From Pseudobdellovibrionaceae bacterium (GTDB lineage Bacteria; Bdellovibrionota; Bdellovibrionia; Bdellovibrionales; UBA1609), in the NCBI GenBank assembly GCA_023954155.1, contig JAMLIO010000005.1:124001-188000 (forward strand): a DNA stretch of 64,000 nucleotides, read 5' to 3'. Shown piece by piece: positions 3,185 through 63,143 of this stretch. Under the pieces are notes generated by a model. It was not told the DNA's origin. It was given only the letters and a program-made list of their open reading frames with translations, and searched no databases. The position numbers were made by a program, and so were the translations under genes. The stretch's first letter is position 1, and every line of letters begins with the position of its first letter.

Positions 3185-3325
3185 TAAGATCAAGCCATAG
3201 TTAAGCGGCACAAAACCCAGACATGATAAGCTCAAGTCATAGTTAAGCGGCACAAAACCCAGACATGATAAGCTCAAGTCATAGTTAAGCGGATACGAAT
3301 CCCAGATATGATGAGTTGAAAGCGA
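3158..3325. repeat. 42-bp tandem repeat, four copies, starting inside the desulfurase gene
   Basis: Copies begin with TTAAGCGG at 3158, 3201, 3243 and 3285 and contain CCCAGAYATRATRAG and CAAGYCATAG. Copies two and three are nearly identical; the outer ones diverge. The first copy spans the desulfurase stop codon, so the array is an amplification of the gene's 3' end. Confidence 0.9.
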
Positions 3326-3399
3326 GAGTAATCAAGTAAAGATATCCAATAGCTTTTTTGCAAAAGTAGGGCTTCTTTTTGTCACTTTAAGGTGGGGCT

Positions 3400-3427
3400 T
3401 GATGGCTTGAGCTTGTCATGTCTAGGA
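3400..3427 (-). repeat. Inverted partial copy of the 42-bp unit
   Basis: GATGGCTTGAGCTTGTCATG followed by TCTAGG is the reverse complement of the CAGACATGATAAGCTCAAGT part of the 42-bp unit with a few changes. With the direct copies it could form a stem in RNA reading through from the desulfurase gene. The remaining intergenic sequence 3326-3519 shows nothing else. Confidence 0.6.
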
Positions 3428-3519
3428 TCTGTGAGGCCATCTCTCACTTGAAGTCTTGGATATAACCTATTGAAATATCATATAAATACAGAAATTTAAT
3501 GGGCTCATAATAGAAAATT

Positions 3520-34087: not shown

Positions 34088-34234
34088 ACTCCTTCTCTTG
34101 GGGCTGAGAATTTATATACCTCCTCAAAATGCTCAGACAGTGACGTTTGGCATGATTTTGCGTTCGCAAAATCATGCCAAGCCGAACTCGCATTTCGATA
34201 AGGTATATAAATTCTCAGCCCCAAGAGAAGGAGT
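34088..34234. repeat. Foldback element E1 (79-nt core, 34-bp perfect arms)
   Basis: Arms 34088-34121 and 34201-34234 are perfect reverse complements over 34 bp. Between them is a 79-nt core (34122-34200) that contains a perfect 16-bp hairpin (34147-34180, starting TTGGCATGATTTTGCG, two-base loop). The core recurs nearly unchanged in element E2 at 48008 while the arms are unrelated. E1 lies between the minus-strand genes murI and the MpaA-like gene. The whole stretch 33984-34303 has no other feature. Confidence 0.92.
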
Positions 34235-45253: not shown

Positions 45254-46607
45254 TCAAAAACTTCTTAAGGTAGGTCTTGTTGGCCGTCCTAATGTGGGTA
45301 AAAGTTCTTTATTTAACTACTTGACCCGCTCACGTTCTGCCGTGGTTAAGGACGAGCCAGGGGTGACTAGAGACATTAAAAAGGGACTGGCTCAGTGGTG
45401 GGGCAAAGAGTTCCATGTTTTTGATACGGGAGGAGTTACTGAACAGGCAGAGGGTCTTTTTGAAATTGTAAAAAAACAGTCTGAAGAGATTTTAAGCAGT
45501 TTAGATGTGATCCTTTTTGTAATGGATGGCAAGTATGGCTACCATCATGATGATCATGCGCTTTTGCAAATGATCAAAAAAACAGGTCGCCCCTATAAGT
45601 GCATCATCAATAAGGTCGACCGCCCCGATGAGGCTGAGATCATCACCGCTGAATTTTATGAACTGGGTGAGACTGAATTTTTGCCTATTTCAGTAGAACA
45701 CCAAGACGGCGTTCATGAACTGATCGAATGGGTCTTAGAGCATGAGGATAATGAAATTTTAGACGACGAAGCTCCACAGAGTGTAAGGCTGTCCATTGTC
45801 GGCAAACCCAACGTGGGTAAAAGCTCTCTTGTAAATTGCATTTTAGGAGAAGAGGCCCAAGTCGTTTATGATATGCCTGGTACAACTGTCGATGCGGTAG
45901 ACCACGATTTTATTTATAATGACAGAAAGTACACGATTGTGGACACAGCAGGTATTCGTCGTCAATCCAAACGTGAGGATGGGATTGAGTTCATTTCGGC
46001 TGTAAAAAGTTACGAGGCCATTGATCGTTCGGACATTGTTTTACTAGTTATTGATGGAACTTTGGGACCGACTAAACAAGATTCTAAAATCATTGAGTAT
46101 CTATTTGAAAATCATAAACCCGCCATTTTGGTTTTAAACAAATCTGACTTGGCTAAAGAGCAATCCAAGACCTATCGTGAGGATTTAAAGGCCAGCCTTG
46201 CCAGACAGTTCCACTTTTTTGAAGATGTCAGATTCACCTTTACCAATGCCAAAGAAGGGCATGGGATTCCTGCGCTTTTTAAATTGATAGAAAAGACATG
46301 GCAGGATTTAAACATTCGTATTCCCACTTCGCAGCTCAATAAGTTTTTTACTGAAACCATTCGTAAAGCTCCAGCGCCCGTGTATGGCACTAAGGATGTG
46401 AAGTTTTACTACCTCACACAGACCCATCAGCGCCCGCCTAGCTTTATTGCTTTTGCCAATCGCCCAGAAGGGGTGAGTCCTTCCTACCGTCGATTTTTAT
46501 CTAAAAGAATCAAAGAGCAGTGGGACATTATGGGTATACCTATCCGTATTTTCGCTATGAAAAGTGGTGGCGGGGGTAAGAAATTTGGTGGTGATAAGTC
46601 TGTATGA
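45219..46607 (+). CDS. der: GTPase Der (EngA)
   Basis: A 462-aa double-GTPase for 50S subunit maturation. The first domain has GRPNVGKSSLFNYL and FDTGGV; the second, from about residue 190, has GKPNVGKSSLVNCIL, VDTAGIRRQSK and NKSD. The KH-like C-terminal domain ends Lys/Gly-rich (MKSGGGGKKFGGDKSV). The start lies 35 bp inside era, and the stop overlaps the transporter start (ATGA), pointing to tight coupling. Confidence 0.97.
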   Translation: MTSENQNLPQSNQKLLKVGLVGRPNVGKSSLFNYLTRSRSAVVKDEPGVTRDIKKGLAQWWGKEFHVFDTGGVTEQAEGLFEIVKKQSEEILSSLDVILFVMDGKYGYHHDDHALLQMIKKTGRPYKCIINKVDRPDEAEIITAEFYELGETEFLPISVEHQDGVHELIEWVLEHEDNEILDDEAPQSVRLSIVGKPNVGKSSLVNCILGEEAQVVYDMPGTTVDAVDHDFIYNDRKYTIVDTAGIRRQSKREDGIEFISAVKSYEAIDRSDIVLLVIDGTLGPTKQDSKIIEYLFENHKPAILVLNKSDLAKEQSKTYREDLKASLARQFHFFEDVRFTFTNAKEGHGIPALFKLIEKTWQDLNIRIPTSQLNKFFTETIRKAPAPVYGTKDVKFYYLTQTHQRPPSFIAFANRPEGVSPSYRRFLSKRIKEQWDIMGIPIRIFAMKSGGGGKKFGGDKSV

Positions 46608-47941
46608 AGATGGCTCCTCGCTATAGCATCTACTTTATCACCATCTCCATGGCTCTGGGTTTAGGGAACATCTGGAGATTTCCCTATCTGATTCATGATT
46701 ACGGAGCAGGGGCTTTCCTTATCATCTACGCCCTTTTGTCTTTGTTTATCGGTGTACCTTTAGTGGTGAGTGAGATTCTTTTAGGGAAGGCCCATCGTGA
46801 CAGAGACTATGGGTCTTCAAGCCGCGTGCTAAAAAGTGTTTTTTTTGACCGAAGCCTTAAGGGACTGTATTGGGTTCCTGCTGTTTTATCTTTGCTCGTG
46901 CTATCCTATTACTGTTTACTGAGCAGTTGGATTTTACATTACGTGTGTCAGGCGTTTTACTGCATTTTGTATAAGAAGCCCTTTATTGCTGAAGAAGTGT
47001 TTATGCAAATCAGCTCTCGTCCGTGGTTGCAGATGCTTCTATGTAGTGTGCACATGCTTTTGACTTTTTTATTTATGAATAAGGGTGAGAAGTTTAAAAT
47101 CAATAGACTAACGGCTTTAGTCATCCCGAGTTTTGTAATGTTTGTGGGTTACATTGTTTATAACTTCTATACTTACGAAGACATTTATGAAACGGCTAAG
47201 CGACTTCTTTATCCTAATTTTAATCAACTTAATAAAGCCTCGCTGAATTTCGCTTTAGGGCAGATGCTCTTCACCCTGAGTTTAGGGTTTGGCATCTTAC
47301 TCAGTTTTGGAAAAAGTTTAAAGGCAGACGCTTCTGTTCCCCAGGTGTCTGCACGTTTGGGTTTGATGGACAGTGTGGTTTCCGTGTTGATGGCCTTTGT
47401 GCTGTTCCCCATGATTTTAAGTCTGGGATATGTGGGTGCAGGGTCAGAGATTCTTTTTTCAGTTTTACCTTATTACTTCCAATCCCAAGAGCTAAGCCTA
47501 TACTACACCTTAATCTTTTATCTTTTAATTTATCTTGTGGCTCTTTTTGCGGGGTTGGGACTGATGGAGTCTGTGGCCATGAACTTATATGAGGGCTTAA
47601 GTTTAACCAAAGTCAAAGCCATCACAATATCTTGCAATGGAGTTTTTTTACTCGGCTCTGGAATCATTTTATTAAATCAATTCTCTAAAAGTGTAGAAAG
47701 ATTTGGTTATAGTAATGTCATCACCTTTGTAGACGATATTTTAATCAACTTTGTTTTACCATTATCCACAATCTTAATTTCAGTCAGGGCCTATAAATTC
47801 CTTAACCGCAAATTCGTAGAAGGCGAATTCATCCGCAATGAAGGCCCCTCTACATGGCGCTTCTTCATCTACTGGCGCTTCATCATCTTATACGGATTCC
47901 CCCTAGTCTACATCATCTCTCTTCTTATTCGTTTCACCTAA
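46604..47941 (+). CDS. Neurotransmitter:sodium symporter (SNF/NSS) family transporter
   Basis: A 445-aa polytopic protein with about eleven to twelve membrane segments. The first holds the sodium- and substrate-binding GLGNIWRFPYL of the LeuT fold, followed by DYGAGAFLIIY and VPLVVSEILLG. Bacterial members import amino acids with Na+. The gene overlaps der by four bases but is functionally unrelated. The 3' 28 bases of the coding region are part of foldback element E2, whose opposite arm carries an inverted copy. Confidence 0.9.
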   Translation: MKMAPRYSIYFITISMALGLGNIWRFPYLIHDYGAGAFLIIYALLSLFIGVPLVVSEILLGKAHRDRDYGSSSRVLKSVFFDRSLKGLYWVPAVLSLLVLSYYCLLSSWILHYVCQAFYCILYKKPFIAEEVFMQISSRPWLQMLLCSVHMLLTFLFMNKGEKFKINRLTALVIPSFVMFVGYIVYNFYTYEDIYETAKRLLYPNFNQLNKASLNFALGQMLFTLSLGFGILLSFGKSLKADASVPQVSARLGLMDSVVSVLMAFVLFPMILSLGYVGAGSEILFSVLPYYFQSQELSLYYTLIFYLLIYLVALFAGLGLMESVAMNLYEGLSLTKVKAITISCNGVFLLGSGIILLNQFSKSVERFGYSNVITFVDDILINFVLPLSTILISVRAYKFLNRKFVEGEFIRNEGPSTWRFFIYWRFIILYGFPLVYIISLLIRFT

Positions 47942-48175
47942 ACTTGGCCTTGAAGTTATGGGGTGGCCCCACTTGAGTGAACTCTTTTTTAATTTTTGAT
48001 TGTGTGTACTCAAAATGCTCAGACAGTGACGTTTGGCATGCCTTTGCGTTCGCAAAAACACGCCAAGCCGAACTCGCATTTCGACCACACACAATCAAAA
48101 ATTAAAAAGGAGTTCACTCAAGTGGTGTGGATGTTTCAAGGTCAAGTTTAGGTGAAACGAATAAGAAGAGAGATG
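47914..48175. repeat. Foldback element E2 (same 79-nt core as E1, ~90-bp arms)
   Basis: The left arm (47914-48007) and right arm (48087-48175) are reverse complements in two blocks, an outer one of about 41 bp with one mismatch and an inner one of about 39 bp with one mismatch. The middle differs by five bases in length. The core 48008-48086 is 79 nt long, like E1, and differs from it only at the ends and within the inner hairpin stem. The left arm includes the transporter stop codon. It sits between two convergent genes and could also act as a bidirectional terminator. Confidence 0.92.
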
Positions 48176-48177
48176 GA

Positions 48178-48909
48178 TTAAAAGTTGATTCCGATATTGC
48201 CGCCGATCCAGAAGACGTCGCCGCTTAAGTAGACGCCTGTAAGTCCGCCACCACCGCTCCCGCTGGGGATGTTTTCGTTTTCGTTGGGAAAGTTGGCGTA
48301 ATGGTAAAGAACAGTGAGGCCTGCAAAGTTTCTGCGGCGATTGAACATGTATTCAAAGCCAAAACCCACATCATAAGTAAAAGAACCGTCTAGACCCTGA
48401 AGGACACTAAACGAAGTATTGGTCTGTCTGCGAATTTGAGAGAATCCACCAAGAATAAAGGGGTTAAGATCTCCTAGGGAGCGGGTCATATTTTGTGTGT
48501 TTAAAAAGTATTTAGCGTGGGCCGACCATGTATTCATGCGTACTCGAGAGTTAATCCTAGTGGCCCCATCGGGAATGGTCTGTTGGTGGGTGGTGGTGTA
48601 GAAGGTGCCCTGTAGAGCAAAGCGTAAAGAGAAAAAATAAGAGGCAGAAATGCCTAACATAGGGTCGCGGGTGTTGTATTTAGCTAGATTTCCTGTGTGC
48701 ATGTGCATGCCTAAGATTCCTGCCACACTGAGCATTCGACCGTACTTAAAAAAGTTAATGTCGGCCTCTTCGGAGGTGGCCTCTACGAACTCGCTATAAT
48801 CCGCAAAGGGATCATAGTTATCTTCGTAGTTCATCTCATCTTGTGCCCAAGCTGTGTGCGAAAACGTGCTAAGAATCAGTGCGAAAATTAGTGAGTACCT
48901 TAAGCCCAT
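48178..48909 (-). CDS. Outer-membrane beta-barrel protein
   Basis: A 243-aa protein with a signal peptide (LIFALILSTFSHTAWA), an acidic N-terminus (DEMNYEDNYDPFADYSE) and barrel-like strands (LALQG-type alternation such as YFFSLRFALQGTFYTTTH and FTYDVGFGFEYMF). It ends in VFWIGGNIGINF with C-terminal Phe. A family of small Bdellovibrio-type barrels is likely; no specific function. Its 3' end abuts E2. It diverges from purM with 97 bp between. Confidence 0.75.
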   Translation of the reverse strand: MGLRYSLIFALILSTFSHTAWAQDEMNYEDNYDPFADYSEFVEATSEEADINFFKYGRMLSVAGILGMHMHTGNLAKYNTRDPMLGISASYFFSLRFALQGTFYTTTHQQTIPDGATRINSRVRMNTWSAHAKYFLNTQNMTRSLGDLNPFILGGFSQIRRQTNTSFSVLQGLDGSFTYDVGFGFEYMFNRRRNFAGLTVLYHYANFPNENENIPSGSGGGGLTGVYLSGDVFWIGGNIGINF

Positions 48910-59216: not shown

Positions 59217-59380
59217 GGCGTTGTTGTTTGGGAGGTCTTAGAAGACATATCCCTCTGACAATAGGCACGCCCATCCATGGGCTCTTCCAGTATTTGCCCT
59301 GCGGGCAAAACGCGTCACGCTTACTGGAGGCCAATTGTTAGAGGGATATGTCTTCTAAGACCTCCCAAACAACAACTGCC
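59217..59380. repeat. Foldback element E3 (71-nt core, ~46-bp arms)
   Basis: Arms 59217-59262 and 59334-59380 are reverse complements with one mismatch and one indel. The 71-nt core (59263-59333) begins AGGCACGCCCATCCATGGGC and ends CTTACTGGAGGCCA. It folds further: TTTGCCC/GGGCAAA, GCCCA/TGGGC and CCAGTA/TACTGG are internal pairs. The same core, inverted, is found in E4. Between E3 and the IS (59381-59514) no gene was seen. Confidence 0.92.
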
Positions 59381-59540
59381 TGTGTGATGGTGTTTAAGTT
59401 GGGATATAGCTGTCTCTGCTCCGGTTTAATTTCACCATCAACTTCTTCTCTGTCTTTTAAATCGGACTTTTTTTGTTGCTTTCATTTGATTTTCCTTTAC
59501 GATCTGTATTTGCTTGACGGGGCCCCAGTTTTAGAACCAA

Positions 59541-62977: not shown

Positions 62978-63143
62978 GGCGTTGCTGTTTGGAAGGTCTT
63001 TAGAAGAGATATTTCTCTAACAAGAGGCCTCCAGTAAGCGTGACGCGTTTTGCCCGCAGGGCAAATACTGGAAGAGCCCATGGATGGGCGTGCCTCTTGT
63101 TAGAGAAATGTCTCTTCTAAAGATCTTCCAAATAGAAACTGCC
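62978..63143. repeat. Foldback element E4 (inverted copy of the E3 core)
   Basis: Arms 62978-63024 and 63096-63143 are reverse complements with a few mismatches. The 71-nt core (63025-63095) is the exact reverse complement of the E3 core except for one terminal base. The arms resemble those of E3 in the same left-right order: left arms start GGCGTTG and right arms end CTGCC, preceded by a base that has no partner. Arm changes between E3 and E4 are mostly matched on both sides (for example GGGAGG against GGAAGG, and ATCCCTCT against ATTTCTCT). Confidence 0.92.

Follow-up and report, generated by a model that had tools for sequence, protein, structure and literature searches.

A dispersed palindromic repeat with a mirrored gene end as its arm in a Bdellovibrio-like bacterium, probably maintained by template switching

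The window analysed here is a stretch of 64,000 nucleotides from a contig (JAMLIO010000005.1, positions 124,001 to 188,000) of a Pseudobdellovibrionaceae bacterium (assembly GCA_023954155.1, hereafter G000, with contigs designated C1, C2 and so on). Within this window, a large palindrome, designated as E2 (47914-48175), starts in the end of a transporter gene and extends toward a convergent gene. Its architecture is an assemblage of two arm tiers flanking a core of 81 bp. The features found at this locus are as follows:

46604..47941, + strand: transporter gene of the sodium:neurotransmitter symporter family (PF00209, E 3.7e-22), whose 3' end is the outer-arm source
47914..47954, + strand: left outer arm of E2, the ancestral gene end, where the stop codon is preceded by 25 coding nt and followed by 13 nt
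47955..47968, + strand: E2 unmatched left patch of 14 nt, GTTATGGGGTGGCC
47969..48006, + strand: E2 inner left arm, complementary to the inner right arm at 37/38 positions
48007..48087, + strand: E2 conserved core, with ~40 occurrences in the genome
48088..48125, + strand: E2 inner right arm, pairing with 47969-48006 (37/38)
48126..48134, + strand: E2 unmatched right patch of 9 nt
48135..48175, + strand: E2 outer right arm, in which the end of the transporter gene is newly copied in reverse (40/41)
48178..48909, - strand: convergent gene encoding a putative outer-membrane beta-barrel protein (Pfam match below cut-off)

The stop codon of the transporter ORF (TAA, 47939-47941) falls inside the outer left arm, and the last 28 bases of the gene (25 coding nt and the stop) are found reversed in the right arm. 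An earlier sequence-only reading of this DNA had described the right outer arm as an inverted duplicate of the transporter gene end, with a length difference of 5 bases in the middle of the arms. Both the coordinates and the 40/41 match were confirmed, and the length difference corresponds to the two unmatched patches, the left one being 14 nt long and the right one 9 nt. As the right arm stops 2 nt short of the stop codon of the convergent gene, the palindrome occupies the entire space between both genes. The predicted single-strand fold of E2 reaches -94.2 kcal/mol, as compared with -30.4 +/- 3.9 for 200 dinucleotide shuffles (z -16). Similarly, the outer arms align with a score of 38.5, while no more than 15.5 was reached when 1,122 mismatched left/right flank pairs were drawn from other copies.

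The orthologous site was compared at family distance, a scale at which the absence of the core and right arm elsewhere can be read, but not the exact ancestral spacer. The C-terminus of the transporter aligns to its relatives without gaps up to their last residues. In seven relatives the convergent pair is closely spaced, with stop-to-stop distances of -4, -4, -4, +1, 42, 104 and 147 nt, versus 236 nt here, and all seven have either a spacing of 42 nt or less, which is too short for the core, or a genome with no core match. In four other relatives, the two stops are about 900-1,050 nt apart. The conserved position of the transporter end, together with the short distances in relatives, indicates that the gene end is ancestral and that the E2 core and right arm are new; an ancestral gene end and a new right arm are what the sequence-only reading had anticipated for this comparison. 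With 42-147 nt between stops in three of the seven relatives, part of the E2 left inner arm could be old intergenic DNA. Another copy of the repeat (C2:186782) is flanked by genes that we take, from reading their sequences, to be PpsR-like and LysR-like. The spacing at this locus is 176 nt, of which 161 belong to the element, and ranges from -6 to 61 nt in 14 of 19 relatives. Convergent gene pairs overlapping by exactly 4 nt, with a double stop such as TTAA, accounted for 9 of the 50 pairs in an ORF-based sample (G000:C1:1-400000 and the window).

E2 had been regarded as a second copy, and another one (E1) does occur in the window, but it is one of about 40 genome-wide occurrences of this core, hereafter core-A. 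Among the complete copies, 34 have their own near-perfect arms, extending about 28 to 83 bp beyond the core edge, and arm identity within copies is 98.7% over 1,500 aligned columns. Two further complete copies, one of them near a contig end, have mismatched arms and a mosaic appearance; apart from these two, no complete core-A without arms was found in the genome. In pairs of copies with identical 70-base cores, the arms are mostly unalignable. The nearly invariant parts of the E2 core belong to an internal loop, TCAGACAGTGACG (48019-48031) and CCGAACTC (48068-48075), and the apical stem between them is variable. Core-A arms have a common layout: TATATA adjoins the core, TTT occupies positions 15-17, and the left strand is rich in G/T. 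Inner arms gave a Mantel r of 0.14 (p 0.0045) and are too diverged to prove one ancestral arm. Copies are enriched behind genes, many of them lying directly 3' of a stop codon; both orientations are encountered in tandem gene settings, and some copies are located between divergent genes. Six contigs of this genome end in or near core copies (C2:6, C7:1, C10:1, C9:242, C13:120 and C5:762), and the right arm at C9:242 resembles the arms at C13:120, perhaps as the result of an assembly join caused by the repeat.

Two more repeat families, B and C, were identified in this genome and have the same build as core-A elements. Family B is characterized by a different core of 64 bp and comprises 15 copies, two of which are in the window. 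Family C, with about 20 or more copies, has conserved GAGCAATGCGTATCCGAC / GCCGAAGACGCTTTGCACCCG and variable outer and apical stems. The copies located in the window besides E2, and one family-C copy, are the following:

34088..34234, + strand: E1, the first copy in the window, with the same core as E2 and arms unrelated to those of E2
59217-59382 and 62981-63139: family-B copies of the window, inverted to each other and 3.8 kb apart
G000:C1:124530-124767: family-C copy (L120), mirroring the end of an ABC exporter gene

Most other family-B copies have locus-specific arms of up to 103 bp. Three family-B copies (L088, L093 and L095) exhibit homologous arms that are 14-45% apart between copies and 0-8% within a copy, their cores being 4.5-7.7% apart, and a group of six family-B copies displays weak homogenisation (within-copy 0.14 vs between-copy 0.16-0.21). 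Two family-B copies have a 34-nt flank in common, which lies to one side of the core in one copy and to the other side in the second, a possible inversion of the core between them. In another part of the window (3209-3433), a 32-nt block occurs twice (3209 and 3251) and is followed by a diverged inverted copy (3402-3433).

Overlaps between arms and genes were seen on both sides of the elements. The sequence-only reading had suggested a check for other gene ends mirrored around the same core, and this revealed a DivIVA gene end mirrored around core-A at C1:581400 (24/27) and arms overlapping right-side genes by 22 and 19 nt, at C1:140089 and C13:18866. The ABC exporter gene end is likewise mirrored around a family-C core at C1:124530 (24/26). 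Where arms run into genes, as at E2 and these four loci, a local origin is clear. The broader proposal that the arms come from local DNA thus holds for the E2 outer arm and a few others, but not for inner arms in general, since arms of related copies are homologous and their layout is common; a local origin can be demonstrated for no more than the outer part of a few copies. The homologous arms found between copies, in family B and in another genome of the order (G014), and the common core-A layout indicate that the arms are retained along with the core, evolve rapidly and remain mirror images of each other. At one locus (L008, G000:C5:29074-29154), both convergent genes terminate within the arms (CAACAACTAG / CAACGACTAG), so that one gene may owe its last codons and stop to a mirrored copy.

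Two other origins were rejected. Left inner arms are not, as a general rule, native terminators of the upstream gene, because the arm composition (A 0.20, C 0.15, G 0.23, T 0.42) is unlike that of 3' flanks in this genome, which is roughly A 0.33, C 0.18, G 0.18 and T 0.31. Insertion of cores into the loops of pre-existing long hairpins was dismissed because, in the 464 kb of this genome sampled as stretches for hairpin statistics, all ten long hairpins (10/10) hold one of the three repeat cores.

DNA searches with the core gave no match in 46 other genomes of the family and, across the order, revealed cores related to it in a second family. When named genomes were scanned with a looser pattern, such cores came up in assemblies of Bdellovibrionaceae, Pseudobdellovibrio and Bdellovibrionia. 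Scans with an exact pattern, of viral contigs as well as named genomes, had no match because that pattern was too strict, and a match obtained by pattern scan in Lewinella was devoid of arms and discarded as chance. With a core-only covariance model (E up to 0.001), 27 of the 141 genomes from the order had matches; they represent 19 genera and four families, and copy numbers resting on weak matches are to be read with care. Complementary arms extend beyond the model in 26 of 34 checked matches outside this genome and, as arms are not part of the model, they provide an independent check on its matches. Copies read in five genomes include some with perfect arms of ~30 bp and others with short arms, such as most of those in G033; G014 copies have an inner arm in common, with mirrored variation. 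Across families, the internal loop is nearly invariant, and helices covary with a score of 0.249, versus 0.115 for shuffles and at most 0.104 when slid. In one genome, a copy (L183, G112:C57) is apparently nested in another, core halves being present twice around a single set of arms. Searched against Rfam, the repeat elements had no match at gathering score, sub-threshold ones being mostly to microRNA hairpin models, and phages and plasmids gave no meaningful match to the element.

MITEs are short, non-coding, multi-copy sequences with inverted repeats at their ends, and the E2 repeat is alike in these respects. However, MITEs are defined by terminal inverted repeats (PMC3733652), whereas no common terminal repeat occurs here and arms differ from copy to copy; direct target-site duplications were not detected either, flank repeats being no longer than in shuffled pairs (p 0.16). 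Like REP/REPIN elements with RAYT and CGTC-tagged REPs, the E2 repeats are dispersed, mainly intergenic bacterial palindromes, and like CGTC REPs they are without a known transposase; yet REP families are defined by stems of 5-13 bp, while here the internal loop is conserved and arms are copy-specific (PMC2817692, PMC3116915, PMC3733652). CGTC-type REPs are further characterized by a terminal CGTC tag, a stem of 8-9 bp and a loop of 4-5 nt (PMC3733652). In this genome, CGTC (complement GACG) was found inside 33 of 34 cores, in a position that is not terminal and with far longer stems, and cores of the second family read TGCG in place of GACG; these elements do not qualify as CGTC-type REPs. 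The tag that GTAG-type REPs have at one end of a short palindrome was present in only 3 of 34 cores, and the elements do not belong to this type either. A Y1 (IS200/IS605-type) transposase was rejected as the mover, together with REP-RAYT membership, as PF01797 had no match in this genome and did have matches in control genomes. Integron attC identity was ruled out, the boxes RYYYAAC and GTTRRRY occurring in 0 of 34 cores. Finally, sponge mitochondrial hairpin elements are also small, mobile-looking intergenic hairpins with a scattered distribution, but their stems are conserved and their loops vary (PMC2800124), the reverse of the E2 repeat.

These observations identify E2 as a copy of a dispersed palindromic repeat, with a conserved asymmetric internal loop between long arms that are probably kept mirrored by template switching. 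In published work, this process is recognised by homogenised arms and inverted spacers (PMC8604942, PMC8794818). Quasipalindrome template switching makes reverse-complement copies and keeps stems perfect, as here, and it can invert the spacer between arms; it was described in RNA genes and short inverted repeats of yeast genes, whereas the present case concerns tens of dispersed copies with arms of 30-100 bp around one core in one genome (PMC8794818, PMC8604942). A polymerase stalled at the hairpin would switch template to the opposite arm, so that a change arising in one arm would come to be carried by both. Pairing of the inner arms at E2 would juxtapose the left flank (14 nt out) with the right flank (9 nt out), where the strand would switch, use 41 nt of left flank as template, consisting of the 13 nt beyond the gene, its stop codon and 25 coding nt, and return just before the stop codon of the neighbouring gene. 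In the three clear cases, the second tier starts at a distance of 9-17 nt from the inner arms (14/9 at E2, 17/10 at C4:62532 and 16/14 at C1:581400), which is where a switch across the foot of a hairpin already in place should put it. Arms are homogenised within copies and, at E2, comparison at family distance provides the ancestral sequence and identifies the copied segment as new. The suggestion of template switching at the core hairpin, already made from the E2 sequence alone, thus fits the pattern, and a switch across an existing hairpin, a step that we infer, appears to best explain the mirrored arms. Alternatively, a single step may have produced both tiers of E2, the middle being damaged afterwards. 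Core-A arm mismatches are not biased towards pairs able to wobble in RNA on either strand (6 vs 7); this lack of preference suggests that a DNA process rather than RNA selection keeps the arms matched. SbcD is part of a hairpin-cutting nuclease. It was found neither in this genome nor in any of the 27 genomes with core matches, and exceeded the cut-off in only one family of the order (f8). Its absence was rejected as a cause, the presence pattern being confounded by descent, and may be a background permitting such palindromes.

Identical cores carrying unrelated arms, as well as arms overlapping gene ends on either side, would also be produced if a bare core inserted and both inner and outer arms were then made by snap-back copying of the local flank, amounting to a 30-100 nt duplication of the target in inverted form. 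On this view, E2 would correspond to one inverted duplication of 93-98 nt of the old left flank, the middle of which has decayed, and relatives with 42-147 nt between stops make the required 67-nt ancestral spacer possible. We consider this scenario unlikely, given the homologous arms of several copies (family B and G014), the core-A arm layout, which is common to copies and unlike the genome's own 3' flanks, and the lack of any complete armless core besides the two mosaics. It is quite unlikely that an order-wide element is mobile in the form of folded single-stranded DNA or RNA, is recognised via its internal loop (CTCAGACATGCG / CCGAACTCG), and copies the target flank in inverted orientation on insertion; if true, this would be an insertion mode marked by inverted, not direct, target duplication.

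Selection on a transcribed hairpin, with compensatory changes keeping the arms paired, would agree with the near-invariance of the internal loop, the covariation of helices and the many copies immediately 3' of a stop codon, and may still apply to the core. As an explanation for the arms it is very unlikely: these are (near-)perfect over up to ~100 bp, more than selection on single pairs is expected to hold, G-U pairs are not enriched among their mismatches, and copies occur in both orientations in tandem gene settings. Although E2 lies between two convergent stop codons and copies are enriched behind genes, an ordinary bidirectional transcription terminator is highly improbable, since a native terminator in this genome consists of a short GC-rich stem with a T run behind it, a conserved core of 81 bp is unnecessary for termination, and gaps between divergent genes also hold copies. 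False inverted joins at repeats during assembly, which the draft contigs ending at copies and the two mosaic copies might evoke, are next to impossible: dozens of copies with different arms are internal to contigs, and the same build recurs in many independent assemblies, including the one-contig G091 and the ten-contig G085.

What is new here is a type of dispersed palindromic repeat in which the conserved part is the internal loop and the arms turn over by mirrored change, in a repeat family that spans an order of Bdellovibrio-like bacteria and is without an Rfam match. The conservation of this loop across families, with nothing matching it in Rfam, points to an undescribed recognised structure. 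At E2, a gene end has been recruited as an arm, at a site that relatives keep without it. The origin and upkeep of long perfect stems are a standing question, for which a single genome offers arm turnover in dozens of natural replicates, with cores that are nearly identical. Repeats of the E2 type would thus record how DNA copying makes and maintains palindromes.
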